From Parahoeflea alexandrii (GTDB lineage Bacteria > Pseudomonadota > Alphaproteobacteria > Rhizobiales > Rhizobiaceae), in NCBI RefSeq assembly GCF_027214025.1, contig NZ_JAPWHB010000012.1:1-45385 (forward strand): a stretch of 45,385 nucleotides of DNA. The letters run 5' to 3'. The translations under genes and the position numbers were made by a program. Below are positions 10,006 to 37,570 of the stretch, in pieces (the stretch's first letter is position 1; the number at the start of each line of letters is the position of its first letter). The notes beneath the pieces are model-generated. The model was not told the origin of the DNA. It did not search any database and worked only from the letters and a program-made list of their open reading frames with translations.

Positions 10006-11943
10006 TCAAACCGGTTTCTCCGTTGCTTCACGCTTCCCGTGGAAGCGGTTTTCGGCAACGCAGGATTTCATGTCGTCGCGGCGGAACCACATGGCACGGC
10101 CACACCGAAGCGGCGCATTTCCAGCGGTGAACACAATCTGTTCGTCGCCGCGCATGCGCAAAACTTCGTGTGGCTGGATCAGCGGGCGGCTGGCCAGCTG
10201 CTTTGATCGGGTTCGTGACGATCCCCTTGCCTGGAAGCTGCGGCTGACCTGATCGATCTCGACCGTCGTCGTTCCGCAGCGCCGGGAAATATATTCCGCC
10301 GTTTCCGGATCGTTGATCGCCGAAAAGCTGATCCAGCTTGCGCTTTCAAACCATTTGCTAGTGGCGTCACGGCCACCATAGGTTTCGCGCATCTGGCCGA
10401 TCGACTGATAGATCATAAGAAGCGTGATCCCGTACTTGCGTCCGGCATCGCGTGCTGTCTCGAGGATCCGCATGAAACCCAACCGCGCGACCTCATCGAG
10501 CAGAAACAGAGTGCGTCCCGGCATCGCACCGTCGCGATTATAGATGGCGTTCAGGAATGAGCCGATAATCACCCGCGCGAGACCGGCATGGGTCTCCAGC
10601 GTTTTAAGATCCAACGCGACAAATACATCGGTCTTCCCGATGGCGATGTCGTCGGTGGAAAAGGTCGATCCGGACACGAGACCGGCATAGTTCGGATAGC
10701 TCAGCCAATGCGTTTCCTTGATCGCATTGGCATAGACGCCGGAGAAGGTCTCGGGCGTCATGTTGACGAAAGCCGCGACATTCTCCTTTACGAAATCGGA
10801 TTCCGAATTGTCATAGATCTCTTGCAGCCGAGCCCTTAGTTTTGGCTCCGGTTCTGAGAGGTTCATGCGCACCGTCCGTAGCGTCTGCTCTCGTTTTTCT
10901 GTACCACCCGAAAGGCATACATCGGCGATGATCGCAGTCAGCAGCTGCAGGCCGGACGCACGGAAGAAGTCGTCACGCACGCCACTGGCGCGGCCGTTCT
11001 CGCTCATGATCCATGAGGCAACGGCGGCAATGTCCTCTTCCTTCGTCCCACCATGCTGACCGATCCAGTCAAGTGCGTTGAACCCGACTTCCGGGTGTTT
11101 AGGGTCGAGAACAACGACATCACGACCGGCATTTCTCCGGTGGGCCTTGACCATCGGCGCCACCTCGTTCGATGGATCGAGCGCGATCAGCGTGCCGCCC
11201 CATTTCAGCGCTGTTGGCACCGTAACCGACGTCGTCTTGAACCCGCCCGAGCCGGCAAAGACGATCCCATGAGACGAACCGAAGGAGCCATCAAAGCAAA
11301 GCAGCGGTGACCTGCCGCCGCTGCCCCATGTCTGAGGATTATCGGCACGAAAAGTGAGTGCTGCCGTGCTGTCCCGGTCGACACGATAACGTTCGCCGAT
11401 GACGATACCGCCACCCTCCCCGAACAACTTTTTGGCAGCCGGCAACTTCATCCATTCCGCCTCGCCGTGCAGCGCGCGCTTGCCGCGAATACGCTTCGGC
11501 TCGGAACGTGCAAATGCGGCGTTGCCGATCACCGCGATGCGAAGCGCGAAGATGCCGCAGATCAAAACTGCCGCCCCGCCGCCCATCGTTCCCGGATCCA
11601 GATAGGACAGGATCGCATTGCCAGTGGGAATCTGCTCCGCGAATTGCGAAAGCCGCGTCCCTTCCCGAATGGCGGCCAGCACAATGACGGCGCCCGATCC
11701 AGCCAAAACGCCCCATCCTGCCGTCTTGATGTTGAGCGATCCGTTGGCAGAAAGAAGAACGATCAGCCCGATCGTAGCGCTTGTGACATAGGGCAGTGAC
11801 AGACCGATCCGACTGAGCGTCATTTTCGCATCTGCCGTTTTTCCGAACGTCGCGAGCCACTGTTCGACCCCTGGTAATGCGAGTGCGATGGCAATCATTA
11901 TCAGTGGCGGCACAACGGCGAGCAGAACCCTATTTGCCGTCAT
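10006..11943 (-). CDS. traG: Conjugal transfer coupling protein TraG (VirD4/TraG family ATPase)
   Basis: A 645-residue inner-membrane ATPase that links the relaxosome at oriT to the Trb channel. Membrane segments lie in the first 150 residues, Walker [10 protein letters not shown] at about 231-239 and Walker [10 protein letters not shown] at about 479-487; the blocks [16 protein letters not shown] and [14 protein letters not shown] near the end are characteristic of Ti-type TraG. The start [14 protein letters not shown] at 11943 agrees with Ti TraG, whereas the frame extends further upstream inside traD. It is the last gene of traCDG and overlaps traD by 14 bp. Confidence 0.95.
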
Positions 11944-12145
11944 CGCCGAATGCCTCCGCGCCGATTGCGATGAGCCGTGATCGCTCCGTCTCATCACCCC
12001 TGATCCTTTTCTTCGCTTCGATCAGCACACCGAGCAGCAGCGCGCGCTTCTCATAGCGCAGCCCGGCTTTGACAATCAGGCCGCCCAGCTCGATCTTCTC
12101 GCGGGCATCCTTTTTTCGAGCCTCTGTCGTCGTTAGCCGCTGCAT
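11930..12145 (-). CDS. traD: Conjugal transfer protein TraD (small Ti-type accessory protein)
   Basis: A 71-residue protein containing [19 protein letters not shown] and ending [12 protein letters not shown], as in the 71-residue TraD of Ti plasmids (unrelated to the F-plasmid coupling protein of that name). The ATG at 12145 gives exactly the family length; the frame upstream of it is the shadow of traC. It lies between traC (4 bases away) and traG (14-bp overlap). It is thought to assist relaxosome function, but its molecular role is not settled. Confidence 0.9.
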
Positions 12146-12149
12146 GCGC

Positions 12150-12458
12150 TCAAGACTCGCCAGCCTGGCCCGTAGCAGCGCCAGAGCCGATCGGCGCGGT
12201 TTCCGACGTTGCGCGTGAGCGAGAGCTGCCCCTTTCCTTTCCTGTTGATCCAGCCTTCCCTGATCCTGGGCTTCCGCAAAACCGTTTCGCCACGTCCTCG
12301 AACGCCGCCTGAAGAGCCACGTCTTCGATCTCGATTTCGCCAAGGCCTGCCTTCAACGCGATGCGGCCGATACGTTCGGCATCGCGTGTTTCGGCTTGCT
12401 TCAGCTGTTCCTGCAGACGGGCAAGTTCTTCGCGGATCTTCGACGTAGGCTTTTTCAT
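12150..12458 (-). CDS. traC: Conjugal transfer protein TraC (relaxosome accessory)
   Basis: A 102-residue protein beginning [20 protein letters not shown], then a helical [20 protein letters not shown] segment and a Gly/Ser-rich basic tail. This is the TraC of Ti-type plasmids, which acts at oriT with TraA. The ATG at 12458 matches the family start; the frame runs further upstream without similarity. It is the first gene of traCDG, about 70 bp downstream of the palindrome at 12528-12545. Confidence 0.92.
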
Positions 12459-12527: not shown

Positions 12528-12545
12528 AGGTACAAATTTGTACCT
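12528..12545. promoter_or_regulatory. Perfect 18-bp palindrome, candidate tra box for traCDG (and possibly traAFBH)
   Basis: AGGTACAAATTTGTACCT is a perfect dyad located between divergent traC (ATG 12458) and traA (GTG 12711), the place where Ti plasmids carry the TraR binding site. The sequence differs from the canonical Ti tra box. The same dyad, with one mismatch, lies upstream of trbB at 34977-34994. Length and symmetry fit a LuxR-type regulator site. Confidence 0.65.
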
Positions 12546-12584
12546 CGCCAAAGCGCAAGCATTTGGCGAATGATCCCGCCGTTC

Positions 12585-12710: not shown

Positions 12711-15700
12711 GTGGCAGTCCCGCATTTCTCCGTCAGCATCGTCGCGCGTGGCTCTGGCCGCAGCGCCGTACTGTCTGCGGCCTATCGGCACTGCGCCAGG
12801 ATGGACTACGAGCGCGAAGCGAGGACGATCGACTACACCCGCAAGCAGGGGCTGCTCCATGAGGAGTTCGCGGTCCCTGCCGATGCCCCAGACTGGCTAC
12901 GCGCCATGATTGCCGACCGCTCGGTCGCCGGAGCCTCGGAAGCTTTCTGGAACAAGGTCGAAGCGTTCGAGAAGCGTATCGACGCGCAACTCGCCAAGGA
13001 CACCACGATCGCTCTGCCGATCGAACTCTCAGCCCAGCAAAATATCGCGTTGATGCGCGACTTCATTGTCGAGCACATTACCTCGAAAGGTATGGTCGCC
13101 GACTGGGTTTATCACGACGCGCCCGGCAACCCACATGTTCACTTGATGACCACGCTGCGGCCTCTGTGCGAGGATGGATTCGGCGCCAAGAAGGTCGCCT
13201 TTCTCGGTCCAGCCGGACAACCCATGCGCAATGACGCCGGTAAGATCGTTTACGAACTTTGGGCTGGTGGCGCCGAGGACTTCAAGGCCTTTCGTGATGG
13301 ATGGTTTGCCACCCAGAACCGGCATCTCGCCCTTGCCGGCCTCGATATCCGCATCGACGGCCGGTCGTTCGAAAAGCAGGGCATCGACCTGACGCCAACG
13401 ATCCATATCGGCGTCGGCGCCACCGCGATTGAACGCAAATCGGAGACGCAGAAAGCGTCAGCCCCGACCTGGTCACCGAAGCTCGAGCGGACCGAGCTGC
13501 AGGAGGCGCGGCGCGTCGAAAACATCAGGCGCATTCAGCGCAATCCAGGTGTTGTACTCGACCTCATCACCCGCGAGAAGAGCGTGTTCGATGAACCTGA
13601 CGTGGCAAAGGTTCTACACCGCTATGTTGATGACGCCGGTCTCTTCCAAAGCCTCATGGCGCGGGTCATGCAGGATCCGGACGTGTTGCGTCTCGACCGT
13701 GAGCGGATCGACTTCAGTTCCGGCGTCCGCACGCCAGCACGCTTCACGACGCGCGAGATGATCCGGCTCGAGGCAGAGATGGCCAACCGGGCGATCTGGT
13801 TGTCTGGGCGCAACTCCCATGGCGTCCGCGCAGCCGTGCTCGAAGCGACGTTCTCGCGCCATACGCGGCTGTCTGATGAGCAAAAAGTGGCGATCGAGCA
13901 CGTCGCGGGGCCTGAGCGGATTACAGCCGTCATCGGTCGTGCAGGTGCGGGCAAAACCACAATGATGAAGGCCGCACGCGAGGCGTGGGAGGCGGCCGGC
14001 TATCGTGTCGTCGGCGGCGCGCTGGCAGGCAAAGCGGCGGAGGGTCTTTCGAGCGAAGCGGGGATTCCGTCCCGGACGTTGTCGTCCTGGGAGCTACGCT
14101 GGAACAACGGTCGCGATCATCTCGACGACAAGACAATCATGGTCCTTGACGAAGCCGGCATGGTGTCTTCGAAACAGATGGCGCTCTTTGTCGAACGGGC
14201 GACATTGCGGGGAGCGAAGCTCGTTCTGGTCGGCGACCCAGAACAGCTGCAGCCGATCGAAGCGGGCGCCGCATTCCGTGCGATCGCCGATCGTATCGGT
14301 TACGCAGAACTTGAAACCATCTATCGCCAGCGCGAGCAATGGATGCGCGATGCTTCACTCGATCTTGCCCGCGGCCATGTCGGTAAAGCCGTCGCATCCT
14401 ATCGCGCCAATGGCAGGATGATGGGTTCGACCTTGAAGTCTCAAGCAGTCGAAAATCTCATCTCCGATTGGAATCGGGAATACGATCCGGTCGGGTCCTC
14501 GCTTATCCTCGCCCATCTTCGCCGTGATGTGCGGATGCTGAACACGATGGCGCGCGCCAAGCTGGTGGAGCGTGGCCTCGTCGAGGCCGGTCACGCCTTC
14601 AAAACGGAAGACGGGATCCGCCGGTTTGCCGTCGGCGATCAAATCGTCTTCCTCAAGAACGAAGGCTCGCTCGGCGTCAAGAACGGAATGCTGGCAAAGA
14701 TCGTGGACGCCGCTCCGGGCCGTATTGTTGCCGAGATTGGGCAAGGCCAACACCGGCAATCGATCACGGTAGAGCAGCGCTTCTACAACAACGTCGATCA
14801 TGGATACGCGACCACGATCCACAAGAGCCAAGGGGCAACGGTTGACCGGGTCAAGGTACTTGCCTCGCTCTCGCTCGATCGTCACCTGACATATGTGGCG
14901 ATGACCCGCCATCGTGAGGATCTCGCAGTCTATTACGGCAGTCGTTCCTTCGCCAAGTCTGGCGGTCTCGTCGAGCTCCTATCCCGCAAGAACTCGAAAG
15001 AGACAACGCTCGATTACGAAAAAGGCACCTTCTATCGCGCGGCTCTTCGTTTTGCCGACGCGCGCGGCCTGCATCTGGTCAACGTCGCCCGCACCCTCGT
15101 TCGCGATCGCCTCGACTGGACCGTGCGGCAGAAAGAAAGGGTCGTCGATCTCGCCGCTCGACTTGCGACGATCGGCGTGCAGCTCGGGATCAAGCGGTCG
15201 AATACTCGGGCGACCCCGGAACCCGTCATGGAGACAAAGCCAATGGTATCAGGCATCACGACTTTCCCGAAATCGATCAACCATGCCGTCGAGGATCGTC
15301 TCGCCGCCGATCCCGGTCTCAAAAGGCAATGGCAGGAGGTTGCAGCACGCTTCCACCAGATCTTCGCCGAGCCGGAGACCGCGTTCAAGGCGGTCAATGT
15401 CGATGCCATGCTCAAGGATCCGGCAAGAGCGCAGACAACGCTCGCAAAGATCGCAGCTGAGCCGGCAAGTTTTGGAGCACTAAAGGGCAAGACCGGCATC
15501 TTCGCCGGCCGCACGGAGAGGGCGGCGCGCGATACGGCGCTTCTCAACGCGCCCGCCTTGGCGCGCAACCTTGAGCGTTATCTGACCGTACGAGCAGAAA
15601 CTGAGCGCAAGCATGAAACCGAGGAGCGGGCAGTCCGCCTCAAAGTTTCCGTCGATATCCCGGCGCTCTCTGCATCGGCCAGGCAGATGCTTGAGCGGCT

Positions 15701-16034
15701 GCGCGATGCGATCGATCGAAATGACCTACCTGCCGGTCTCGAGTTTGTGCTTGCCGACAAAATGGTCAAGGCAGAACTCGAAGGTTTTGCCAAGGCCGTA
15801 TCGGAACGTTTTGGAGAACGAAGCCTGTTGCCGCTGTCGGCAAAGGATGCAAACGGTGAAACCTTTCATAAGCTGACGGCAGGCATGAGCCCGATCCAGA
15901 AGAGCGAGGTGCAAGCAGCTTGGAGCAGCATGCGCACAGTGCAGCAGCTCGCCGTGCACGAGCGCACTACGCTGGCGCTGAAGCAAGCGGAGACGGCACG
16001 TCAAACTCAGACCAAGGGACTTTCCCTCAAATGA
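12711..16034 (+). CDS. traA: Relaxase/helicase TraA (MobA/MobL family relaxase fused to a TraI/RecD-like helicase)
   Basis: A 1,107-residue protein that nicks oriT and unwinds the transferred strand. The N-terminal relaxase has the conserved tyrosine region AAYRHCARMDYERE (Tyr at about 25) and the metal-binding histidine motif HVHLMTT (about 142-148). The helicase part has Walker A GRAGAGKTT (about 409-417), DEAGM (about 480-484) and the UvrD/RecD-like KSQGATVDRV. The C-terminal 250 residues match the tail of Ti TraA. The GTG at 12711 has AAGGAG at 12695-12700 and gives VAVPHFSVSIVARG, matching the family N-terminus; a TTG at 12705 is less likely. It overlaps traF by ATGA. Confidence 0.95.
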   Translation: MAVPHFSVSIVARGSGRSAVLSAAYRHCARMDYEREARTIDYTRKQGLLHEEFAVPADAPDWLRAMIADRSVAGASEAFWNKVEAFEKRIDAQLAKDTTIALPIELSAQQNIALMRDFIVEHITSKGMVADWVYHDAPGNPHVHLMTTLRPLCEDGFGAKKVAFLGPAGQPMRNDAGKIVYELWAGGAEDFKAFRDGWFATQNRHLALAGLDIRIDGRSFEKQGIDLTPTIHIGVGATAIERKSETQKASAPTWSPKLERTELQEARRVENIRRIQRNPGVVLDLITREKSVFDEPDVAKVLHRYVDDAGLFQSLMARVMQDPDVLRLDRERIDFSSGVRTPARFTTREMIRLEAEMANRAIWLSGRNSHGVRAAVLEATFSRHTRLSDEQKVAIEHVAGPERITAVIGRAGAGKTTMMKAAREAWEAAGYRVVGGALAGKAAEGLSSEAGIPSRTLSSWELRWNNGRDHLDDKTIMVLDEAGMVSSKQMALFVERATLRGAKLVLVGDPEQLQPIEAGAAFRAIADRIGYAELETIYRQREQWMRDASLDLARGHVGKAVASYRANGRMMGSTLKSQAVENLISDWNREYDPVGSSLILAHLRRDVRMLNTMARAKLVERGLVEAGHAFKTEDGIRRFAVGDQIVFLKNEGSLGVKNGMLAKIVDAAPGRIVAEIGQGQHRQSITVEQRFYNNVDHGYATTIHKSQGATVDRVKVLASLSLDRHLTYVAMTRHREDLAVYYGSRSFAKSGGLVELLSRKNSKETTLDYEKGTFYRAALRFADARGLHLVNVARTLVRDRLDWTVRQKERVVDLAARLATIGVQLGIKRSNTRATPEPVMETKPMVSGITTFPKSINHAVEDRLAADPGLKRQWQEVAARFHQIFAEPETAFKAVNVDAMLKDPARAQTTLAKIAAEPASFGALKGKTGIFAGRTERAARDTALLNAPALARNLERYLTVRAETERKHETEERAVRLKVSVDIPALSASARQMLERLRDAIDRNDLPAGLEFVLADKMVKAELEGFAKAVSERFGERSLLPLSAKDANGETFHKLTAGMSPIQKSEVQAAWSSMRTVQQLAVHERTTLALKQAETARQTQTKGLSLK

Positions 16035-16597
16035 CGGCTGCGGGGATGGAACCAGGCACGATGCACCGTCAACGACGCTTTGCATTCTGCACTTTGTCAC
16101 TGGCTTGCGGCCTGTTGATCCTCCTTTTGGTCGCAGGTTATATCGGTGGTTTGCGGATAAACATGACGCCGAGCGAGCCGCTCGGCCTTTGGCGCATTGT
16201 TCAGATCACCCGTTCGATCCGGCCCGGTGAAATGGTGTTCGTTTGTCCGCCGGACAACTCCGCCCTGCGCGAGGCGCGCCGACGTGGATATCTGCGTTCG
16301 GGTCTTTGCCCCGGCGGGTTCGGGCCATTGATCAAGACCGTTGTGGCCGTCACCGGACAGCGCGTGGCAGTCACCGATCTCGTCGCCATTGATGGCGTAC
16401 CAATCCGCAACTCCCGCATTTTCGAGAAGGACGGACAGGGGCGCTCTCTTCGTCATGGTCAAAGTGGAATGTTGCTACCAGGAGAAGTGTATTTGCACTC
16501 GGACTTTATCGGCTCATGGGATTCCCGGTATTTCGGGCCGGTTCCGGATTCCGGTGTTCTCGGTCTAGCGCAAGAGGTGTTGACCTATGCGCCGTGA
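16031..16597 (+). CDS. traF: TraF, S26-family signal-peptidase-like pilin maturation protease
   Basis: A 188-residue protein with an N-terminal membrane anchor (about 17-42), then MTPSEPLGLWR with the likely catalytic serine at about 48 and PLIKTVVAVTGQRV with the likely catalytic lysine at about 102; HSDFIGSWDSRYFGPV is the typical C-terminal S26 block. In RP4 the homologue processes and cyclises the TrbC pilin, and trbC is present here (33571-33957). It starts by ATGA overlap with traA (16031) and overlaps traB by 11 bp. Starts at Met6 or Met11 are also possible. Confidence 0.92.
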   Translation: MTAAGMEPGTMHRQRRFAFCTLSLACGLLILLLVAGYIGGLRINMTPSEPLGLWRIVQITRSIRPGEMVFVCPPDNSALREARRRGYLRSGLCPGGFGPLIKTVVAVTGQRVAVTDLVAIDGVPIRNSRIFEKDGQGRSLRHGQSGMLLPGEVYLHSDFIGSWDSRYFGPVPDSGVLGLAQEVLTYAP

Positions 16598-17753
16598 CGT
16601 TATGATGACTGCCGTTCTCGTCCCCCTCGCCGTCGTTATTGGTACGATCGGCTGGAGCGGCCAGGCGCCCCTGCTGCCTGCGGCAACCTTCTTCCCGCTT
16701 CTGTGGGCGCGATCACCGACGCGCATCGCCGCAGCCCTGGTCGCGGCCGGCTATTTCCTGGCGGCGTCACGAGGATTGCCTGTCGGCGTCGGCCAGTTCT
16801 TTTCAGCGGATCTCTGGGTCGGGCTCTGCTTCTGGATCGTGGCGGCATCGTCTTTCGTTGCTGTCCATGCGGCACTCTGGACGGCGCGATCAGGCTCGGC
16901 AAAAGCAGGGCGCTATCTCCTGATCTTGGCTCTCACCGGTCTGCCGCCGCTCGGCATCACAGGCTGGGCGCATCCGCTGACGGCGGCCGGCATTTTGTTT
17001 CCGGGATGGGGATGGTGGGGGCTTCTCGCGTTGACAGCCGGCCTGATCGGTCTCGTAACCCGGATCGGGCCGGCTATCGCCATTGCCCTAACAGGTCTAT
17101 GGCTTTGGTCCGCCGCATCGGGGACAAATCAGATCCTATTGGAGGGGTGGCGTGGTGTCGACCTCGAAATGGGTTCGAGCCTTGGCCGCGATCGCTCGCT
17201 TGAACGTCAACACCAATTGATCGGCCTCGTTCGGGAGGCTGAGGGAGCCGGCGCAGCCGTCGTGGTTCTGCCTGAAAGCGCGCTGGGTTTCTGGACGCCT
17301 ACTCTTGAACGTCTCTGGCGGGAAGGATTGCGAGGGACCGTTGTGACGGTAATCGCCGGCGCGGCAGTGATCGACGCTGAGGGTTACGACAACGTCATGA
17401 TGGCCATCGATTCCGATGGCGGAAATGTCCTCTATCACGAGCGCATGCCCGTGCCGGTGTCGATGTGGCGTCCCTGGGAGCGATGGACCGGGCAGACCGG
17501 CGGCGCCCGCGCCAGCTTTTTCGCAAACCCCGTTGTCGAGATCGCTGGCAAGAAGATCGCGCCTCTCATCTGCTACGAACAACTCGTGCTGTGGCCCATT
17601 CTCCACTCGATGATTTATCGGCCCGACGCGATTGTTCTGATGGGCAATGGCTGGTGGGCAACTGGCGGCAACATCGTCGCCATCCAACGCGCGAGCGCGA
17701 AGGCCTGGTCCGACCTGTTTGGCGTCCCTCTTGTGATTTCCTTCAACACCTGA
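16587..17753 (+). CDS. traB: TraB, membrane protein with a C-terminal nitrilase-like domain
   Basis: A 388-residue protein with five or six hydrophobic segments in the first 175 residues and a carbon-nitrogen hydrolase domain from about 185, the architecture of apolipoprotein N-acyltransferase. The nucleophile region KKIAPLICYEQ (Cys at about 329) and the glutamate region VVVLPESA (Glu at about 230) are present. At the position of the catalytic lysine the sequence reads LYHERMPVPVSMW, so Glu or Arg replaces Lys. Ti-type TraB raises conjugation efficiency by an unknown reaction. It lies between traF (11-bp overlap) and traH (17 bp apart). Confidence 0.93.
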   Translation: MRRDVMMTAVLVPLAVVIGTIGWSGQAPLLPAATFFPLLWARSPTRIAAALVAAGYFLAASRGLPVGVGQFFSADLWVGLCFWIVAASSFVAVHAALWTARSGSAKAGRYLLILALTGLPPLGITGWAHPLTAAGILFPGWGWWGLLALTAGLIGLVTRIGPAIAIALTGLWLWSAASGTNQILLEGWRGVDLEMGSSLGRDRSLERQHQLIGLVREAEGAGAAVVVLPESALGFWTPTLERLWREGLRGTVVTVIAGAAVIDAEGYDNVMMAIDSDGGNVLYHERMPVPVSMWRPWERWTGQTGGARASFFANPVVEIAGKKIAPLICYEQLVLWPILHSMIYRPDAIVLMGNGWWATGGNIVAIQRASAKAWSDLFGVPLVISFNT

Positions 17754-17770
17754 ACTTTGGAGCCTTCGTC

Positions 17771-18382
17771 ATGGATGCTGCCTTTATCGAACAATGTGCT
17801 GATCCCTTGTTGAAACCCGCGATCGTTGAGCAGTTCGTATCTGCGGTCGGTCCTGGCGACCCGCTGGCCGTCACGGTGAAATCCGGAGGGCGGCTCATCC
17901 TCATACCTAAACCGAAAACACCCGACGAGGCGATGGAGGTCATACGCCAGTATGTCGGACAAGCTGTCGTGCGGGTTGGTCTGACACAGTTTCCGGCGGG
18001 TGTGGGCGTAAAGGACATATCCGAGCTGAAATCAGATCTGGTCGATCCTTGCGAAAACCTTCGCATCGGGACGAATATGTTCGCAAAGATCATGCGCATT
18101 GTCGCGGAATGGTATGGCAACCCCAAGAGCACAGAGGTGTTTCCCCTGATGTTCGAAGATGCTGTTTATGCTTGGAACTCCGGCCAGTTCGAGGGGCAGA
18201 GCGTGTTTCAGGCGGAGGACCCAGGCGGAGCAATCGTCGATCGAAAAGAATCTGTTCCAGACATCACGGACGCACCGGCTGGAGCTACGCTCTCCCAGAG
18301 CGAAGCGGAGCGCTCAGACGAGAAAGAGATTGGGGCTGCGGGAATTCGGGTCGATTTGTCCCGGATCGGTGGGCAGAAGTAG
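17771..18382 (+). CDS. traH: Conjugal transfer protein TraH
   Basis: A 203-residue protein beginning MDAAFIEQCADPLLKPAIVE with a conserved KDISELKSDLVDPCENLRIG block, as in Ti-type TraH, the fourth gene of traAFBH. No signal peptide or membrane segment is visible, and the last 45 residues are polar and probably disordered. The ATG at 17771 is 17 bases after traB; the frame upstream is a shadow. Its biochemical role is not established. It is unrelated to F-plasmid TraH. Confidence 0.9.
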   Translation: MDAAFIEQCADPLLKPAIVEQFVSAVGPGDPLAVTVKSGGRLILIPKPKTPDEAMEVIRQYVGQAVVRVGLTQFPAGVGVKDISELKSDLVDPCENLRIGTNMFAKIMRIVAEWYGNPKSTEVFPLMFEDAVYAWNSGQFEGQSVFQAEDPGGAIVDRKESVPDITDAPAGATLSQSEAERSDEKEIGAAGIRVDLSRIGGQK

Positions 18383-20932: not shown

Positions 20933-21637
20933 ATGTCAAACTGGGTCGAAAAGCTGTTGGATGTCACCGCGATCGGAAACGATCAGTCCATGGTGAAGGG
21001 CGCGCTGGCCAATCTCGCTGAACGGTTCGATTTCGCAGGCTATGCCTTCGTCAATGTTCGTCCTGGCCAGACCTACGCGGTGTCAAACTACGATTTCGAA
21101 TGGCAGAAAATCTACGACAGGCTGGACTACCGGTTCATCGATCCGGTCATGCGGCAGGCGCAACTCATAAGACGCGCTTTTGCCTGGTCCGGCGAGGCAG
21201 ACAAGAGTTCGCTCTCCAAAGAGCAGACGAACTTCTTTTCAAGAGCCGCTGATTTCAACATTCGCTCCGGTGTTTCCATTCCTGTCGCAACCGCCAACGG
21301 CGCCATGTCCATGTTGACCTTCGCATCGGCGAAGCCGTCGCTGGCCGGTGATGTGGAAATCGATGCGATCACAGCGGCATCAGCGGTCTCCCAGCTTCAC
21401 ACGCGTTTCGAGCATTTGCGGGTCACGCCGTCCATCGAGGAAAAAATTGTTTTGACCCCGAAGCAGGCGACCTACATTCGCTGGCTCTCACTTGGCAAGA
21501 CCGTCGAAGTGATCGCTGAACTGGAACAGGCAAAATATGCCGGCGTCCGCTCGGCGATTGACGATGTAAGAACACGATACAATCTGGCCAATCATGCGCA
21601 GGTGGTGGCGCTGGCAATTCGGCGGGGATTAATTTAG
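20933..21637 (+). CDS. traR: TraR-type quorum-sensing activator of conjugation (LuxR family)
   Basis: A 234-residue protein, the length of Ti TraR. The N-terminal autoinducer-binding domain has the conserved WQKIYDRLDYRFIDPVMRQA and RAFAWSGE blocks (Trp, Tyr, Asp of the AHL pocket) and IRSGVSIPVATANGAMSM. The C-terminal LuxR HTH (about 172-234) reads LTPKQATYIRWLSLGKTVEV and ends ALAIRRGLI, close to TraR. The ATG at 20933 has GGGAGAG at 20921-20927. It is followed by convergent traM. Expected role: AHL-dependent activation of tra and trb. Confidence 0.9.
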   Translation: MSNWVEKLLDVTAIGNDQSMVKGALANLAERFDFAGYAFVNVRPGQTYAVSNYDFEWQKIYDRLDYRFIDPVMRQAQLIRRAFAWSGEADKSSLSKEQTNFFSRAADFNIRSGVSIPVATANGAMSMLTFASAKPSLAGDVEIDAITAASAVSQLHTRFEHLRVTPSIEEKIVLTPKQATYIRWLSLGKTVEVIAELEQAKYAGVRSAIDDVRTRYNLANHAQVVALAIRRGLI

Positions 21638-21651: not shown

Positions 21652-21951
21652 TCAGACCTTTGGCGTGTAGCCCAGAATGTGAAGCAGGGTCGTCAAGGCC
21701 GACATTTGCGCGTGCAACCTGATGGTTGTTTCGAGATAGGCAACATGGGCATTGCTACCAGCTTCCTTGCCGGCTTTGACCTCAGCGGGCAGTTCATTGA
21801 ACAGGTTTTCAGCCTGCTCCAACAATGTGCGATGCTCGTGGATTGCATCGACCGTGAGGCGCTCAATGATTGATGACGGAAGCCCATGCAGGAGCCCTAC
21901 CAGCGGCTTCAGATCGATTGTCTCACCATTCAACCGGTCATCGGCGTCCAT
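21652..21951 (-). CDS. traM: TraM, anti-activator of TraR
   Basis: A 99-residue helical protein ending AYLETTIRLHAQMSALTTLLHILGYTPKV, the conserved C-terminal block of Ti TraM, with LKPLVGLLHGLPSSIIERLT near the N-terminus. TraM binds TraR and keeps it from DNA until the AHL level is high. The ATG at 21951 gives the family length; the frame to 22074 is not supported. It is convergent with traR, 14 bp between stops. Confidence 0.92.
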   Translation of the reverse strand: MDADDRLNGETIDLKPLVGLLHGLPSSIIERLTVDAIHEHRTLLEQAENLFNELPAEVKAGKEAGSNAHVAYLETTIRLHAQMSALTTLLHILGYTPKV

Positions 21952-23878: not shown

Positions 23879-24639
23879 TCTCCGCGGCGATTGTCGGGCC
23901 GCAGTGCTGGAAACGTATATTGACCGGATCCCCCACCGATTTTTCCAGCGTCAAAGAGCGCTTTACGAGGGCAGGCACAGTCAACGAAGCCCTCCATTTG
24001 ATACAATCCATTTATCGCGTGGATTTCGTTACCTACCATCTCGCGTCGACAGTGATAGGTGATTTCGACGCCCCGTTCGTGCGGACGACCTACCCGGCTG
24101 CGTGGGTGTCCACTTACTTGCTCAAGGGCTATGTCCACATCGATCCGGTGGCGCGGGAGGGATTTCTGCGCCAGCTGCCATTCGATTGGCGAGAGCTCGA
24201 GTTCGCGTCCGAAACGCTCACGTTCTTAGAGGACGCAATGCGCCATGGTGTCGGCCGCTTCGGCTTCTCCATTCCGATTTCGGATAAAGCCGGCCGGCGC
24301 GCCATTCTGTCTTTCAATTCGAACACGTCCGCTGAAGACTGGAACGTTCTGCTCGATCTGCATCGGAGCGAATGGGTCGATCTCGCATATCTCGTGCACC
24401 AGATGGCAGTCTTCGAGCTGCACGGAGAGAGTGATCCGATCCCGGCCCTGAGCCCACGGGAGCGTGAGTGCCTGTATTGGAGCGGGCTCGGCAAGGATTG
24501 CAAGGACATCGCGCTCATTCTTGGCCTCTCGCACCATACGACTCGCAGTTACCTAAAGTCGGCCAGGACGAAACTCGGTTGCGGGACAGTCTCTGCGGCG
24601 GCCACCCTTGCCCTGAAGCTGCGCCTGATCTCGATATGA
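23863..24639 (+). CDS. LuxR-family autoinducer-binding regulator adjacent to luxI
   Basis: A 258-residue protein. The N-terminal autoinducer domain contains YRVDFVTYHLAS, YPAAWVSTYLLKGYVHIDPV and FDWRELEF (Trp, Tyr, Asp and Trp of the AHL pocket); the C-terminal HTH reads LSPRERECLYWSGLGKDCKD then IALILGLSHHTTRSYLKSAR, a standard LuxR HTH. The first in-frame codon with support is the ATG at 23863; a TTG at 23797 lies inside resolvase debris. It is 117 bases upstream of luxI on the same strand, so it is the probable cognate receptor. It is clearly different from TraR, so two LuxR proteins act in this window. Confidence 0.85.
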   Translation: MIDHTISAAIVGPQCWKRILTGSPTDFSSVKERFTRAGTVNEALHLIQSIYRVDFVTYHLASTVIGDFDAPFVRTTYPAAWVSTYLLKGYVHIDPVAREGFLRQLPFDWRELEFASETLTFLEDAMRHGVGRFGFSIPISDKAGRRAILSFNSNTSAEDWNVLLDLHRSEWVDLAYLVHQMAVFELHGESDPIPALSPRERECLYWSGLGKDCKDIALILGLSHHTTRSYLKSARTKLGCGTVSAAATLALKLRLISI

Positions 24640-24756
24640 GCTGACCGCTGCGTAGTTCTGACAATACCCGCATTTGAGTGTGCCCATGTGCGGGAATTTC
24701 GTGAGCTGCGGCAAGCCGCCATTTTCCGGCAAAGATCAACAGCTGGAGGAAAAACC

Positions 24757-25557
24757 TTGTTCATTTTGATTCAGGCGCATCAATACAACCGTTACAAGTC
24801 CCTCATGGATCAGGCGTTTCGGCTGCGCAAGCGCGTATTTCATGACCAACTCGGTTGGGCCGTTACGATCGAGGGGGATTGCGAACGCGACGAATATGAT
24901 GACCTGCGGCCGGCTTATTTGATGTGGTGCAATGATCGCGCGGATCGTCTTTATGGAACGCTACGACTGATGCCAACAACGGGGCCCACGCTTCTCTACG
25001 ATGTCTTCCGCGACACTTTCGCGGGAGCAAGCCTGATTGCGCCTGGCATTTTCGAGGGAACAAGAATGTGTCTCGATGAGAAAACGCTCTCCAAGGACTT
25101 CCCAGGATTGGAAACAGGGAGGGCTTTCGGCATGCTGCTGCTGGCGTTGTGCGAATGTGGGTTGAGCCATGGCATCCAGGCGCTGGTCTCCAATTACGAA
25201 CCGCACCTGGCGCGGGTCTATCGCCGGGCGGGCCTGGCTGTTGAAGAAGTTGGACGTGCTGACGGGTATGGTCGCTCTCCGGTTTGCTGCGGTATCTTCG
25301 AGGTTTCTGAGACCGTTCGCGCACTGATGCAGCAGGCGCTCGGTGTCTCAGTTCCCCTCTATGCAGGTTATTGTCCGCGCAACAACACGCCATCAACCAC
25401 TGTATTGTCCGGGGAAGACGATATCCTGGTCAACCAGAACATTGAACTTGTAGCCTGGTCTGATCCGGATCGTGGGCTGCACATTCAGGCTCTTGGTGAT
25501 GGTCTGCTCGGCGACGCGGCCGAAGGTCTCCGCGAAATTACGCCGGGCTGCGTCTGA
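24757..25557 (+). CDS. Acyl-homoserine-lactone synthase (LuxI/TraI family) with C-terminal extension
   Basis: The family core is FRLRKRVFHDQLGWAV, then DEYDD, YGTLRLMPTTGPTLLYDVF and EGTRMCLDEKTL, containing the invariant Arg, Phe, Trp, Asp, Asp, Arg, Glu and Arg residues of LuxI enzymes, which join an acyl chain to S-adenosylmethionine. A TTG at 24757 is preceded by GGAGGA (24745-24750) at 6-base spacing and fits the family N-terminus, so the ATG-like starts further upstream are unlikely. The protein is 266 residues, some 50 longer than usual, because its frame runs 165 bp into the 3' end of convergent trbI. In Ti plasmids traI instead heads the trb operon. Confidence 0.85.
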   Translation: MFILIQAHQYNRYKSLMDQAFRLRKRVFHDQLGWAVTIEGDCERDEYDDLRPAYLMWCNDRADRLYGTLRLMPTTGPTLLYDVFRDTFAGASLIAPGIFEGTRMCLDEKTLSKDFPGLETGRAFGMLLLALCECGLSHGIQALVSNYEPHLARVYRRAGLAVEEVGRADGYGRSPVCCGIFEVSETVRALMQQALGVSVPLYAGYCPRNNTPSTTVLSGEDDILVNQNIELVAWSDPDRGLHIQALGDGLLGDAAEGLREITPGCV

Positions 25558-26688
25558 AGCTGTATCCTGGGTAGCGAGCGTGGAGCTCTCGGCAACCGCC
25601 ATGTCGATACCCGTCCCGATCAGTGCGACGAGCGCTGCCGATCCGAAGGTGCGAAGATAGTGGTTGTTGACCTTGTCGGCGAAGCCGCTGTACCCCTTCG
25701 AGTCCGCACCAGCCATTCCGCCGATCTGCAACGTCGAGCCATTCGGGAAGATAATGTCCGTCCAAACCACGAGAACCCGGCTCTGGCCAAACGAAACCTT
25801 GCTGTCATAGCGACCGAACAGTTTGGTCCCCTGCGGGATCAACAGAAAGTGGCCGGTGGCGCTATCGTAGACGTGCTGGCTCACCTGCGCTGTGATCCGG
25901 CCCGGCAAATCGGAAATGATGCCGGTAATCATCGTCGCCGGGATGACTGAGCCGCGCTTTAGCTCATAGCGCGACTGTTGGGGAACCACCCGGTTCGGCA
26001 GGTAACCAAGATCCTTGATGTCGGCGTTGAAGAAGTCTTGTTTCGAAGTCTGGCCGTTCGGATCGACGTTCTGACCCATGAGACCGGATTTCATGGCCGT
26101 GGCATAGAGATCAGAGGCGCTGCTGGTGCTGGTCGGTTGCCGGTCAGATGTCCGTGTATCGGTCGGGATATTTCCGAGTTCCGAGATTTTGACCTTGAGC
26201 GGCGAGTCCAACGCCGTTGCGCGGGCCTGGAGGCTCGCCATGCGTTGGCGCTGCTGTTCACGAAGGACCTGCTCGCGTTGTTCGCGACGAAGCCTCTCCA
26301 GCCATTCTTCCTCCGATTCCATCCGCGGCCGGCGTTCTTCCCGGACCTGCCGCTTTATCTGCTCTTCCTCAACCGGCGTGGTTTCCACCTTTGTCTGGGT
26401 TGGGGGCGCGGGCTGGAATACGGGCTGCTCTTCGCGATCGCCGATGATGCCGTCTTTCACCCCACGCTTCATCTGATCAGCGAAGGTCGAAGCCGGGACG
26501 TTTGAGCCTGCTTCACTTGGGTTTTTTTCGCCAAACCGCAGTCCACGGGAAGAGATGCCGTAGACCAGTACGGCGGCCACGACCACCGTGATGCCAATCC
26601 CGAAGAAAACCGGCAGACGGTTGAGCCTTTTCATGCCTTTTTCTTGCGTGGTGTTGCTCGGATTGCCGAGCTGGAGCGACTGTACCAT
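25393..26688 (-). CDS. trbI: Conjugal transfer protein TrbI (VirB10-like)
   Basis: A 431-residue cell-envelope-spanning protein. A single membrane segment follows at about 27-48 (MKRLNRLPVFFGIG and following), then a Pro/Glu/Arg-rich periplasmic linker (residues 90-160) and a C-terminal VirB10 barrel domain from about 215 (LKRGSVIPATMITGIISDLP, then GRITAQV; ends NVLVDQDIVFPG). It starts MVQSLQLGNPSN, as in Ti TrbI. It is the last gene of trb; its 3' end overlaps luxI on the other strand. Confidence 0.95.
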   Translation of the reverse strand: MVQSLQLGNPSNTTQEKGMKRLNRLPVFFGIGITVVVAAVLVYGISSRGLRFGEKNPSEAGSNVPASTFADQMKRGVKDGIIGDREEQPVFQPAPPTQTKVETTPVEEEQIKRQVREERRPRMESEEEWLERLRREQREQVLREQQRQRMASLQARATALDSPLKVKISELGNIPTDTRTSDRQPTSTSSASDLYATAMKSGLMGQNVDPNGQTSKQDFFNADIKDLGYLPNRVVPQQSRYELKRGSVIPATMITGIISDLPGRITAQVSQHVYDSATGHFLLIPQGTKLFGRYDSKVSFGQSRVLVVWTDIIFPNGSTLQIGGMAGADSKGYSGFADKVNNHYLRTFGSAALVALIGTGIDMAVAESSTLATQDTASDAARRNFAETFGRVAEQTITKSLNVQPTIRIRPGYKFNVLVDQDIVFPGQYSG

Positions 26689-26700
26689 GATCGCCTTTCC

Positions 26701-27144
26701 TCAGCTTCGCTTCATCAACGAGAGCGGGCTCGACGGCGTGGCGCCGCTAGCCGAGATCGCATAAGCCCGGCCAAGCTCGAGCGTTTCAGTGGATAGTCTC
26801 GCCAGAACCTGTCCGTCGAAGTCGACCAGGGAATACGCCAACTCGATCGGTTTGGTGTTGTCGTTCCCTGAATCAGCCGTGTCATCCGTCAAGACAGTAA
26901 AACCCCAGCCCTTCAGCGCGGCTTCAAGCGCAGTCGAAAAATCCGATGTGTCCGTATGCAGCTTGATCGCGGTGGTGGTGGACCCGGCCTGCTCGGCAAA
27001 GCGTCCGGCCAGATCGCCAGCGATTGCGCTTGCTGCCGGGCCGGACACAGTGGAAGGCGCAGCACTCGTCGTCAGGGCGTCGTTCCCGGTCTGACAACCT
27101 GATAGGATAAGGGCGGCAACGAATGGCAAAAGGTTCAAGCGCAT
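26701..27144 (-). CDS. trbH: Conjugal transfer lipoprotein TrbH
   Basis: A 147-residue protein with the lipoprotein signal MRLNLLPFVAALILSGC (lipobox LSGC, Cys17). The mature part is Ala/Thr-rich, then contains TTTAIKLHTDTSDFSTALEA and a C-terminal VDFDGQVLARLSTETLELGR segment. It is an outer-membrane component that presumably stabilises TrbG, in the way VirB7 does VirB9. It lies between trbG (3 bp) and trbI (12 bp). Confidence 0.9.
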   Translation of the reverse strand: MRLNLLPFVAALILSGCQTGNDALTTSAAPSTVSGPAASAIAGDLAGRFAEQAGSTTTAIKLHTDTSDFSTALEAALKGWGFTVLTDDTADSGNDNTKPIELAYSLVDFDGQVLARLSTETLELGRAYAISASGATPSSPLSLMKRS

Positions 27145-27147
27145 CGG

Positions 27148-27978
27148 TCAGTCTCCCCGCCGGATAGTGATCTTCTGCTGGCGCCAGCCGACGCCCGAAA
27201 CAAGAATGGCTTTGTCGACGTTGTAATCGACAATCATCATGTCGTTCTTCATGCGGTAGTTGACGATCCGGTTTTTCCCGCCCGAAACCACGAAGAGAAT
27301 CGGCGCGTCCTGGCCAGAGAGGATGCGCGGAAACTGGATGTAGGTCTTCTGACCATCCGAAAAAACGCGCTTTGGCTTCCAGGGCGCGCTGCCGCTCAGC
27401 GCATACGAGAAAGCGAGGTGCTCCGGTGGCACGCCACCGTCCGGATTTGTCATCGTTTGGATGCGGGCGTTGATATCGGACAGCTTCGTTGCGGCATCTT
27501 CAGGATACTCGAAGCCGACGCGGGCCATGTACTGGTTTGGGTGCGATTTAAGCTGGATGTGATAGGTGCGCCTTGACGTTGTCACCACCATCGATGTGAT
27601 CAGACCCGGTTCCGACGGTTTGACGATCAGGTGAATTGCCTGACCTCCTGCAGCACCTGATGTTGCCGGTTCGATTTTCCAGCGCACTGTGTCGCCCACG
27701 AGCACGTCGCGTACAATCTCCCCGCCTTGTAGTTCGATGTCACAAACCTGCAATGGTGAGCAGACAACAGAAGGCTGCGTTTCACCGAAGAGGAAGATGA
27801 CTTTTCCATCAGCGCCGGTTGTCACCAGTCCCCGCTGGCCGCGCCATTTGTTGGAAAGGGTAGTTCCCTTCGCTTCATTGGTTGTCAGGCTTTGTGCAGA
27901 GCCCGATGTCGTTCCCACACTCCAAAGAGCGAACGCCGTCACGCAGCAGAGTGCTGCCCGGTGTATCCTTGTATTCAT
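27148..27978 (-). CDS. trbG: Conjugal transfer protein TrbG (VirB9-like)
   Basis: A 276-residue periplasmic/outer-membrane protein with an N-terminal signal peptide ending near TTSGSAQS. The VirB9/CagX domain is recognisable by the C-terminal [35 protein letters not shown] and [13 protein letters not shown] blocks, and by [10 protein letters not shown] in the middle. It forms the outer core with TrbI and TrbH. Confidence 0.95.
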
Positions 27979-27993
27979 TGAATTCCCCTGCCC

Positions 27994-28656
27994 TTACAGT
28001 TGCGCGGTCCAGTCGAAGTCCTTGACGTAAAGGCCGATCGGATTGAGCCGTATCGTTGCCTCGTCCTGGGGTGCAGTGATCGCGACAGTCGCTATGCCGC
28101 GAAATCTGCGTTTGGCGATTTCCTTGCCCTTTCGATCCCGCTCATACTCGGTCCAGTCGATCTGGTAGGTCTGGTTCGACAGTGCGACGATGTTGTTCAC
28201 CTCGATGGCGACGGTGGCGTTCACCGCCTTTTCGAACGGAGAATTGCCGCGGAACCAGGCGTTGATCTTCTGGGTCGACGGATCGCTTGTTCTCAGAAGC
28301 GCATAGGTTCTGTCGATATATTGTTTCTGGACGACGGCATCCGGGGTTATGGAGCGGAAGCTCGTAATGAAGCTTCCGAGCGTCGCCCGGATGACCCGGG
28401 CATCGGCATATTCGATCTGCTGCGGAAATCCTGCCGAAACGGTGTTCCCGAGTTTGTCGACCTCGACGATGTACGGCACGAGTTTGACCTGTGTGCTCAG
28501 GTAAAGTGCGTACCCAAAGCCGATTACGGCCATGCCGAGGCTCAGAATTCCGACCGTTCGCCAGGCCGAGGCCGCTCTGACATAAGAGCCGTATCGTTCT
28601 GACCACTCTTGCCGTGCGGCAAGGTACGGGTTTTCCGGGGCGCGTGGCGCTGCCAT
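27994..28656 (-). CDS. trbF: Conjugal transfer protein TrbF (VirB8-like)
   Basis: A 220-residue inner-membrane protein: a short cytoplasmic N-terminus ([18 protein letters not shown]), one membrane segment (about 34-54), then a periplasmic VirB8 domain with [26 protein letters not shown] and [15 protein letters not shown]. It is a core nucleation factor of the mating pore. It starts [11 protein letters not shown]; the gene is 15 bp upstream of trbG. Confidence 0.95.
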
Positions 28657-28680
28657 ATGAGTTTCCTTGTCTACAGATTA

Positions 28681-29859
28681 CTATTTGTCCTGGCGTTCAG
28701 GCGGTTGGCCCGGCAAAGATCCCTTGCCACGGGCTTGATCCAGTTTCGCGTTGGCGAGGCCCAGGATTGAACCAGCATAGGCGCCGGGTGAACCAATAGC
28801 CTTCTCCTTTGCCGCGGATCCTGCGGCTTTTGCACCGGATCCAAAGCTGGCGCCGATTCCGCGAAGAGTAGCGCCGGCGACGGATGATCCACCTGCACGC
28901 GCCGACTGTGCTGCTGCGAATCCAGCTCCCGCAGCACCCGCCGTCAGAAATGCGGCGCCGGTCGCAAAGGAGGCTGTCTGCCCGCCATGGCGGATGGTTT
29001 CCATTCCGCCTGTGACTGACGCGCCTTGGACCACGCCCTGGATGATATTTGGCACATACATCGCGATGATAAATACCACGACAGCAATGCCGGCGATCGC
29101 GAGCGCAGTCTGAAACTGGTCTCCGACATTTGGTTCGTTCGCAAGTCCGATGAGAACCTCGGAGCCGATGCGGGAGATCATCACGAGCGCCATCAGTTTC
29201 ATGCCAACCGAAAAAGCATAGACCAGATAACGGACGGCGAAATCCTTGGTGAAGGATGAACCGCCGAGGCCAAGCATGATCATGCCCGCAAGAAGTCCAA
29301 GATACATCTCGACCATGACGGAAACAAAAATTGCGGCGACGAGAGAAAAAGCAATGACCGTGACAACCATGGCGAATGCGGCCGAGATCGCCAGCGCATT
29401 ATCCTCGAAAAGGCCGAACTGCACCTTCTCAGACATTTTCGTCGCCACTGTCAGGCCAGCATTGAAAACGTCCGCAGGAGAAGCCGTCCCTCCGCCGGCG
29501 CCAATCTGAAAGAGGCTGTCGACGACAGCCTTGGCGAAGGCTGGGCCTTGAGAGAGGACGAACGCGAAGAAGCCGACAAACATGATTCGGCGAACAAGCT
29601 CGGCGAACCAGCTATCAAGGGATGCTGCCTGCAATGCCAGCCAGACAGCGGCAAGTCCGATCTCGATAGTGGCGAGGATCCAGAATAGCGATTTCGCCGC
29701 ATCCATGATGGTGGTCTCCCATCCCTTGGCAGCGGTAGTTATTTGCGTTTGGAGCGATGTCAGAACCGAGCCTTCCTGCGCAAGCGCAGGGTGAGTAATC
29801 ATGACAGGAATGGTGACAAGAAGCAGAGCCAGCCGCATTTCGCCGATGGAGGTTGTCAT
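28681..29859 (-). CDS. trbL: Conjugal transfer protein TrbL (VirB6-like)
   Basis: A 392-residue polytopic inner-membrane protein: signal-like N-terminus (LALLLVTIPVMITHPALAQ), six or so membrane segments between about 55 and 285, and a Gly/Ala-rich C-terminal tail ending GSLPGQPPERQDK. This is the VirB6/TrbL arrangement. The ATG at 29859 is 4 bp after trbK; an ATG at 29838 (MRLALLL) is an alternative. TrbL forms part of the inner-membrane channel. Confidence 0.93.
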   Translation of the reverse strand: MTTSIGEMRLALLLVTIPVMITHPALAQEGSVLTSLQTQITTAAKGWETTIMDAAKSLFWILATIEIGLAAVWLALQAASLDSWFAELVRRIMFVGFFAFVLSQGPAFAKAVVDSLFQIGAGGGTASPADVFNAGLTVATKMSEKVQFGLFEDNALAISAAFAMVVTVIAFSLVAAIFVSVMVEMYLGLLAGMIMLGLGGSSFTKDFAVRYLVYAFSVGMKLMALVMISRIGSEVLIGLANEPNVGDQFQTALAIAGIAVVVFIIAMYVPNIIQGVVQGASVTGGMETIRHGGQTASFATGAAFLTAGAAGAGFAAAQSARAGGSSVAGATLRGIGASFGSGAKAAGSAAKEKAIGSPGAYAGSILGLANAKLDQARGKGSLPGQPPERQDK

Positions 29860-29863
29860 TGGT

Positions 29864-30040
29864 TCACCATTCGATCTTCATCTTCTCTCCGCCGGTAGTC
29901 GGATAGGATTTCGACGAATCGAAAAACTCCACGCGGCGATGCTGTGCCTCCTGTTTCTCCGAAATCACGAACCAGAAGCCGGTGGCGCCAATGGCGAGCA
30001 ACGATGCGATTGCAATCAGAATGAGTTTCGTTCTCACCAT
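29864..30040 (-). CDS. trbK: TrbK, entry-exclusion type protein, 58 residues
   Basis: A 58-residue protein with one membrane segment (KLILIAIASLLAIGATGFWF, about 5-24) and a short periplasmic tail; it has no cysteine, so it is not a lipoprotein. Position between trbJ (7-bp overlap) and trbL is that of trbK. TrbK in related plasmids mediates entry exclusion of identical plasmids. Its tail, PTTGGEKMKIEW, almost repeats the tail of TrbJ (PSTSGGEKMKVEW). Confidence 0.85.
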   Translation of the reverse strand: MVRTKLILIAIASLLAIGATGFWFVISEKQEAQHRRVEFFDSSKSYPTTGGEKMKIEW

Positions 30041-30840
30041 TCCACCTTCATCTTTTCCCCGCCGGAGGTGGACGGTGCTGTGCTGCTGAAGAATTCCTCG
30101 CGCCTAGTCTGCGCGAGATCCTTGTCGGTCTGCTCGCTTTGCAGCCAGGTTCCCATCATTGTCATCTGCTGGGAAACCAGGCCCCGCAGCTTCTGCATCT
30201 GCGCAACCTGCTGTGCTGCAATCTCGTGGCCGACCTGAAGGGCTTTCACCTGACCGTTGGCCGACTCCGACATATTTCGAAGCGAGCTCATCGTGCTTTC
30301 CTCGCTGTCGAATTGATCGGCCGTCAGGCTTGCTGCTTTCAGCGTACTTGCGACGGTGTCGCGATTGGTTTCGGACCAACCTGCGTAGTACGACGACAGG
30401 TCGGTTCCATTGCTGGCTGCGGCTTGCAAATCGGCATAGGATTGAAAGCGCTGTTTCAGGATGTCGTCCGCGTTTGCCATCGAAAACGAAATGCTCTGAC
30501 CCTGATCCACGATACTGCGAAGTCTATTGAGGTCGCCCTCGACCTGCCCCCATATGTGCTCAGGCAACTGCGCTGTATTTTGCAGCATGTTCTCGTAAAT
30601 CCTCATCTGGTTCTGGATTTGCTCGGCCAGCTGGCTGATCTGCGTCAGCTGATTGTCGACCTGCAGACCGGAGCTTTTCAGAAGGTCGACGAGCTGTGCA
30701 TTGTTGGCAAGCTGTGTCCACTCGGTTGCTGCGCCGGTCGCCGTGCCGGCAAACGCCGGCGGCGAAGCGCCGATGGCGAGAGCTGTCACAATCGCGACGG
30801 TTACGGTTCCCTTTTTCAGCGATAGCCTGTGGTCAAGCAT
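30034..30840 (-). CDS. trbJ: Conjugal transfer protein TrbJ (VirB5-like)
   Basis: A 268-residue periplasmic protein with a signal peptide (LSLKKGTVTVAIVTALAIGA, then SPPAFA) and long helices rich in Gln and Asn (NQLTQISQLAEQIQNQMRIY, EIAAQQVAQMQKLRGLVSQQ), typical of VirB5/TrbJ pilus-tip adhesins. The ATG at 30840 overlaps the trbE stop by 8 bp; the longer frame to 30903 is inside trbE. The C-terminus GGEKMKVEW is shared with TrbK. Confidence 0.92.
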   Translation of the reverse strand: MLDHRLSLKKGTVTVAIVTALAIGASPPAFAGTATGAATEWTQLANNAQLVDLLKSSGLQVDNQLTQISQLAEQIQNQMRIYENMLQNTAQLPEHIWGQVEGDLNRLRSIVDQGQSISFSMANADDILKQRFQSYADLQAAASNGTDLSSYYAGWSETNRDTVASTLKAASLTADQFDSEESTMSSLRNMSESANGQVKALQVGHEIAAQQVAQMQKLRGLVSQQMTMMGTWLQSEQTDKDLAQTRREEFFSSTAPSTSGGEKMKVEW

Positions 30841-33268: not shown

Positions 33269-33278
33269 CACAGCACCT

Positions 33279-33578
33279 CTAGAAACGTCGCCACGGCGAC
33301 GACGTGGGCAGGTAGTGATGGCGGTAGCGCAGATGCCGCACGTAGACCTGACGCATGAGGGGGTCGGCCTTTGCCATCATGCGCAATGCACCGACGATCA
33401 CGAACCAGATGGCAATGCCGAACAGCGCCGAATACAGGGTCAGGACGACGAAGATCAGGATGATCGCCACCAACCCTGTGACAAGCAGGAGCTCGCGGTC
33501 TGCTCCCATCAGCAGGTTCGGCCGAGAGAGCGCGCGGTGAATGCGATTGCGTTGGAGTGTGGATTGCGGCTCACTCAT
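33279..33578 (-). CDS. trbD: Conjugal transfer protein TrbD (VirB3-like)
   Basis: A 99-residue inner-membrane protein: basic N-terminus with [20 protein letters not shown], a membrane hairpin (about 30-65) and a C-terminal [20 protein letters not shown], the classic VirB3/TrbD pattern. It overlaps the trbC stop by 8 bp. Confidence 0.95.
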
Positions 33579-34976: not shown

Positions 34977-34994
34977 ACGTACAAATTTGTACCT
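34977..34994. promoter_or_regulatory. Candidate tra box upstream of the trb operon
   Basis: ACGTACAAATTTGTACCT, core GTACAAATTTGTAC at 34979-34992; it is the same dyad as the perfect one at 12528-12545, with one mismatched arm base. Placed at about -42 from a start of transcription near 34943, it would suit class II activation by a LuxR-type protein. Confidence 0.65.
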
Positions 34995-35259: not shown

Positions 35260-35291
35260 AAAATGTCCTCTTATGGGAACTAGTTCACGAA

Positions 35292-37562: not shown

Positions 37563-37570
37563 ACCGCAAA

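Follow-up and report, generated by a model that had tools for sequence, protein, structure and literature searches.

Two matching palindromes at the conjugation promoters of a Parahoeflea alexandrii repABC plasmid are probable tra boxes of its own TraR

In this study, we analyzed a 45,385-nucleotide stretch of Parahoeflea alexandrii DNA (contig NZ_JAPWHB010000012.1, hereafter the window), and the results suggested that two palindromes in it are very probably cognate operators (tra boxes) of the plasmid's own TraR. A first-pass annotation had proposed a non-canonical tra box common to both conjugation promoters, and this proposal gained comparative support from conservation, from the slot occupied, and from covariation between box and recognition helix. 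Profile matches and the gene order of four annotated relatives showed that the window carries the backbone genes of a conjugative repABC plasmid, in the order traG/traD/traC (-), traA/F/B/H (+), traR, traM, a second luxR (LuxR2), a traI-like synthase gene, trbI to trbB (-), and repABC (Table 1).

Table 1. Features of the window that bear on the two boxes.
Feature	Position	Strand	Basis or remark
Box 1, AGGTACAAATTTGTACCT	12528..12545		perfect 18-bp dyad, traC-traA gap (oriT region)
Box 2, ACGTACAAATTTGTACCT	34977..34994		between trbB (-) and repA (+)
traC-traD-traG operon, putative box 1 target	10006..12458	-	traG by Pfam; traC start; order from annotated relatives
traA-traF-traB-traH operon, putative box 1 target	12711..18382	+	traA by Pfam MobA_MobL; order from annotated relatives; 18382 marks where the frame listed for the traH region stops
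trb operon, trbB to trbI, putative box 2 target	25393..34912	-	trbB by Pfam T2SSE; order from annotated relatives
repABC, divergent from trbB	35226..38957	+	perhaps also targeted by box 2
traR, 234 aa, recognition helix KYAGVRSAIDDVR	20933..21637	+	NCBIfam TraR equivalog
traM, TraR antiactivator	21652..21951	-	Pfam PF09228, 1.5e-27
LuxR2, second LuxR, CinR-like	23920..24639	+	Pfam Autoind_bind and GerE; open frame from 23797, start common to relatives near 23920
traI-like AHL synthase	24757..25557	+	Pfam PF00765, 6e-31; outside the trb operon
Candidate LuxR2 operator CCCGCATTTGAGTGTGCCCATGTGCGGG in front of traI	24667..24694		predicted
AATGAT, possible traA -10	12569..12574	+	23 bases past the edge of box 1; predicted

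Both palindromes were found where the first-pass annotation had placed them, 22 kb apart at conjugation operon promoters, with box 1 forming a perfect dyad; each is an 18-bp inverted repeat in a tra or trb promoter gap. They differ at one of 18 bases (position 2) and have 16 contiguous bases in common, and the 14-bp core described earlier is thus shared but understates the likeness. Between box 1 and the starts of traC and traA lie 69 and 165 bases, respectively, and box 2 begins 65 positions upstream, counted from the A of the trbB ATG, which agrees with the distance given before. Symmetry alone is weak evidence, because the window contains three perfect 18-bp dyads; the strong and non-random part is the repetition of the same letters at two operon promoters. 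Scanning the window with the 18-mer at up to three mismatches returned boxes 1 and 2 as the sole matches, and 100 dinucleotide shuffles returned none. The exact 14-mer core occurred in the 5.54-Mb assembly (68 contigs) only at boxes 1 and 2, and random recurrence of the dyad, the outcome that the first-pass annotation had named as contrary to its claim, did not occur; one extra place at two mismatches represents background, since the reversed control pattern gave four at two or fewer. When 397 genomes were sampled evenly across the order, the exact core turned up in a single one, Parahoeflea alexandrii itself; two genomes of the family that carry the exact core (G139 and G390) are absent from the genomes listed in this draw.

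The boxes were conserved within the window's TraR clade. In the traC-traA gap, AGGTACAAATTTGTACCT was present in all 13 readable records of the clade (the window, pAt4, Ochrobactrum sp. MT180101, pSinA, P. gei p2, R. oryzihabitans p5, L009, L011-L015 and L022), which are possibly non-independent; L010 starts inside traA and hence stands outside this count. The inner ACAAATTTGT was preserved in 8 of 8 readable trb-rep gaps, window included. Three of these gaps (window, pSinA, L072) matched the 14-mer exactly, two with one mismatch and three with two mismatches, and the repA-side arm of box 2 read GTGGGT, not GTACCT, in three (L005, L070, L073), a change that speaks against the tra-box reading. 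Column identity across the eight gaps was 0.92 in box 2 vs. 0.69 and 0.76 in the left and right ungapped flanks, respectively. The nearest TraRs found outside the window were encoded on two Hoeflea MAG contigs (99.6 and 99.1%).

The traR product scored 283.9 bits against the NCBIfam TraR equivalog cutoff of 250, which places a TraR on the same plasmid as the boxes, and its alignment with the solved TraR (1h0m/1l3l) was gapless. The protein shares R at residue 206 with Ti TraR and has D at residue 210 in place of the Ti R; these two residues are described as being among the primary DNA contacts, and both are changed in the TraR of pAt15955 (PMC7856919). A total of 44 gaps were aligned, 43 of them with a TraR on the same piece, and 31 of the 43 carried a slot dyad in which 7 or more of the 9 positions pair. 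The 12 slots without such a dyad, which count against the tra-box reading, belong to ten distant TraRs (35-40%) and NGR234 (28.5%), all 11 of other TraR classes, and to L038, where TraR is Ti-like and the slot was unalignable; most of the distant-TraR loci have another dyad about 20 bp farther from traA.

Box letters and recognition helices fell into matching classes (Table 2). Position 5 of the half-site was compared over 35 loci, after five individually read plasmids had been added and one duplicate removed, and it was A in 12 of 12 loci with the helix KYAGVRSAID and in 0 of the 23 others, all of which have G. Within helix residues 198-213, positions 200, 203 and 204 fully split the A5 from the G5 loci. 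The same held at both slots in plasmids where both were read, with A in five clade plasmids and G in five other-class plasmids (L063, L096-L099). A control of position 5 by residue 210 was considered and rejected, because pAt1D1108b pairs D210 with G at position 5.

Table 2. Recognition helices of TraR and the boxes that accompany them.
Helix	Box
KYAGVRSAID	AGGTACAAATTTGTACCT
KYNTVRIALA	AGGTGCAAT[TG]TTGCACCT
KYSTVRITLD (pAt1D1108b)	AGGTGCAAATTTGCACCT
SYDNVRSKIR	AGGTGCAAATTTGCACGT
KYNSVRVKLR, KYNSVRVKIA (Ti)	A[TC]GTGCAGAT[CT]TGCAC[AG]T
KYNSVKSKL	A[TC]CTGCAGATCTGCAGAT

Box and helix distances were correlated (r = 0.73, n = 39; r = 0.82, n = 28 with dyad rows only). The partial Mantel correlation of box and helix given the N-terminal domain was 0.27 (n = 39) and 0.33 (n = 28), values reached by 0 of 2000 permutations, and that of box and N-terminal domain given the helix was 0.15 (119 of 2000 permutations), with 0.32 in the dyad set (0 of 2000). 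Partial correlations between flanks and helix were 0.19 and 0.27 (0 of 2000 permutations each). The position-5 sets were also separated by 19 of the 172 columns in the N-terminal part and by 9 of the 62 in the C-terminal part. An attempt to free the covariation formally from ancestry was given up: the partial Mantel results favor the helix, and ancestry remains in them. Shared ancestry is a real confounder, the helix change being tied to plasmid ancestry, and may yet be the cause of the covariation. Judged from these alignments, the sites and the TraR switch appear to have changed together.

As for the regulator, it had been suggested that either of the two LuxR proteins, or both, may read the site; the comparisons favor TraR over LuxR2, since the slot dyad persists in TraR stretches without LuxR2. 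We regard it as improbable that the CinR-like LuxR2, and not TraR, reads the boxes. LuxR2 has a LuxR-type HTH and a match in all 14 clade records searched, and the two regulators are consequently inseparable inside the clade, L011 perhaps excepted, where box 1 is intact and the LuxR2 match runs across two reading frames, possibly through a sequencing error. GTAC-type arms downstream of luxR also occur in some of the more distant CinR-like loci (about 45-49% identical), such as ACGTACATTTGTACGG in L087 and CCGTACAAATGTACGC in L088, both box-like save for their spacing, and LuxR2 thereby retains a small probability as the reader. On the other hand, a homologous box occupies the same slot in stretches without LuxR2, namely L063, L096, L098 and L099 as well as the Ti stretches L064 and L067. 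Two other examples carry less weight: LuxR2 is missing from the stretch of L097, but a 57.5% relative lies elsewhere on its plasmid (H176), and L023 and L071 have none, but the genome from which L023 comes (G390) has LuxR2 on another contig. Conversely, p42a of Rhizobium etli, which like the window pairs a transfer system and TraR with a CinR-like LuxR (55% to LuxR2) and TraI, has no window-type box in its 31-kb transfer stretch; ahead of its traI stands a 7-of-9 dyad of other letters, GTTGTAGAATCCTACAAG. Its TraR is of another class, 28% identical to that of the window and with another helix, and its traI heads the trb operon.

The gap in front of the window's traI likewise argues against LuxR2 at the boxes, with CCCGCA/TGCGGG arms and a motif that reads CA-N2-TG, in contrast to CA-N4-TG in the boxes. 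The motif pair seen there, CCCGCANNTG / CANNTGCGGG, is common to part of the other CinR-like loci, and we treat it as a candidate CinR-type operator; read as CA-N2-TG 16-mers, its halves form just 5 and 3 of 7 pairs. Within 220 bases past the luxR stop of 27 LuxR2-type loci, CANNTGNGGG occurred in 12 (0.35 expected from mononucleotide shuffles) and CCCNCANNTG in 14, and after removal of the window clade (6 of the 27) in 6 and 8 of 21, respectively, counts that are not an independent test because the motif was partly derived from some of the same loci. The window contains both strings, at 24667-24694. The motif usually stands before a synthase gene, downstream of LuxR2-type genes. Boxes 1 and 2 do not belong to this operator type, having other arms and another spacing. 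In the paper examined for a CinR motif, binding is mapped to a 100-bp promoter piece, with no motif given (PMC13295618). A perfect 18-bp dyad just upstream of the LuxR2 start common to relatives (CGTATGATCGATCATACG, 23860-23877) was also considered as an operator and was rejected, being unconserved in the four aligned relatives.

It is more doubtful still that both LuxR proteins bind, with two AHL signals converging on the boxes. On p42a, the AHLs that TraI produces are reported to act through TraR and CinR and are described as essential for transfer (PMC7449395); however, this alternative meets the same objections as LuxR2 alone, and the half-site and spacing likely to be used by TraR are unlike those likely for LuxR2. 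Least probable of all is that the dyads are sites of another factor (a relaxosome, nucleoid or Rep protein) or oriT architecture outside quorum sensing, for although box 1 lies in the oriT region beside another dyad and box 2 adjoins repABC, the same letters recur 22 kb apart in gaps that are otherwise unrelated, their slots are those reported for Ti tra boxes (PMC3907764), and the box letters follow the TraR class.

With TraR as the reader of the boxes, we infer binding, activation, a need for AHL and a division of labor between the two LuxR proteins from the sequence comparisons. From box 1, a TraR-AHL dimer would activate traCDG and, in the opposite direction, traAFBH; from box 2 it would activate trb and perhaps repABC. 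TraM would restrain TraR. The CinR-like LuxR2 and TraI would constitute a second module with its own operator ahead of traI. The half-site would have changed from the Ti form ATGTGCAGA to AGGTACAAA alongside a helix change from KYNSVRVKLRE to KYAGVRSAIDD. In class II promoters, the start is reported to follow the box at a distance of about 45 nt (PMC3907764), and the possible -10 AATGAT on the traA side would fit such a placement by its spacing. In the 11 loci compared, the promoter-like ATGATCCC around AATGAT kept its distance from the box to within one base, with ATCATCCC in its place in two; no clear -10 was found on the traC, trbB or repA sides of the boxes, a point against the tra-box reading.

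No TraR-type box was found before traR, traM, LuxR2 or traI in the window at up to three mismatches to the 14-mer core. The window's traI is thus without a recognizable TraR site, because the window contains no further core site within three mismatches, and another gene leads the trb operon; in Ti plasmids, by contrast, a tra box precedes the trb operon and traI comes first in it (PMC3907764). The synthase scored below both NCBIfam TraI cutoffs. We tentatively propose, as a model that as a whole is somewhat less likely to be right than wrong, that the circuit is split in two: TraR would drive transfer through a re-spelled box in which the position-5 change accompanies side-chain loss at 203/204, the CinR-like regulator alone would drive traI, so that TraR would no longer drive production of the signal it responds to, and TraM output would be set by a structured RNA leader.

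Compared with known systems, the window shares with Ti (pMP90, pTi932) the 18-bp dyad, the CA-N4-TG spacing, the traC-traA slot, a promoter-like element downstream, and the combination of a TraR equivalog with TraM. The first-pass annotation had stated that the sequence is not the Ti tra box, and its half-site indeed differs from the Ti one at positions 2, 5 and 8, in parallel to differences between the TraR helices at residues 203, 204 and 207-210. Ti letters nevertheless define the Ti class and not tra boxes at large, because those of other TraR classes depart from them as well: in Ti, pAt15955 and pRL8-type plasmids alike there is a slot dyad with CA-N4-TG spacing whose letters follow the recognition helix. 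Plasmids pTi15955 and pAt15955 provide a described precedent, with distinct tra-box consensuses and TraRs differing at 206 and 210, and pAt15955 resembles the window in pairing a second box consensus with a TraR altered in its recognition helix (PMC7856919). In the box letters read from our gap alignments, the pAt15955 half-site has C instead of the Ti G at position 3, together with K206 and E210, whereas the window is changed at positions 2, 5 and 8 and has retained R206 together with D210. Plasmid pRL8, assigned to group I-C (PMC7449395), its same-helix plasmids and pAt1D1108b resemble the window in having traR-traM followed by trb, with boxes at both gaps. Their half-site, AGGTGCAAA or AGGTGCAAT, is one or two bases from that of the window; they differ in G at position 5 and in the helix KY[NS]TVRI. 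Neither traI nor LuxR2 is annotated in the L063, L096, L098 and L099 stretches, in contrast to the window.

The window box is a further variant beside the divergent box/TraR pairs already reported (pTi15955/pAt15955), and it adds a class of TraR operator. Its core string was not found in the open-access literature searched, where the strings GTGCAAATTTGCAC, GTGCAGATCTGCAC, TGCAGATCTGCAC and GTACAAATTTG matched only under titles on unrelated subjects and pSinA together with TraR gave no match. The neighboring pAt1D1108b, with a box one base per half-site from that of the window and a TraR 60% identical, may serve as a natural experiment on the co-change of regulator and operator and on the insulation of signals between co-resident plasmids. 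Reading the boxes as TraR operators further yields predicted TraR targets for pSinA, a plasmid of arsenite oxidation with reported conjugative transfer (PMC6115938).

Several additional features were observed. A third dyad, CGGTGCAAAT[TC]TGCACCT, is present in pSinA (L007:1353-1370) and P. gei p2 (L008:1006-1023), 104-110 bp upstream of a DUF3991/toprim gene, and is near the pAt1D1108b tra-box type. The leader of traM (21952-22205, -) showed a mean column identity of 95% over 14 aligned records and folded much better than its shuffles on the traM strand (z -4.7; -1.7 on the other strand), and 6 of its 89 consensus pairs had both-sided changes that preserve the pair. No Rfam family matched the leader at the gathering threshold, the sole weak match being far below it; the leader is possibly a new cis-acting RNA ahead of the TraR antiactivator. 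Elsewhere in the window, Rfam matches were obtained for the Atu_Ti1 sRNA (17034-17125, -) and, both within repABC, for ctRNA_p42d (37566-37610, -) and the S-element (37654-37721, +). The traM-LuxR2 distance is only about 0.5 kb in L009 and about 1.2 kb longer in L010, and in the window an ORF for HEPN plus nucleotidyltransferase (22646-23554, +) lies between the traM leader and LuxR2.
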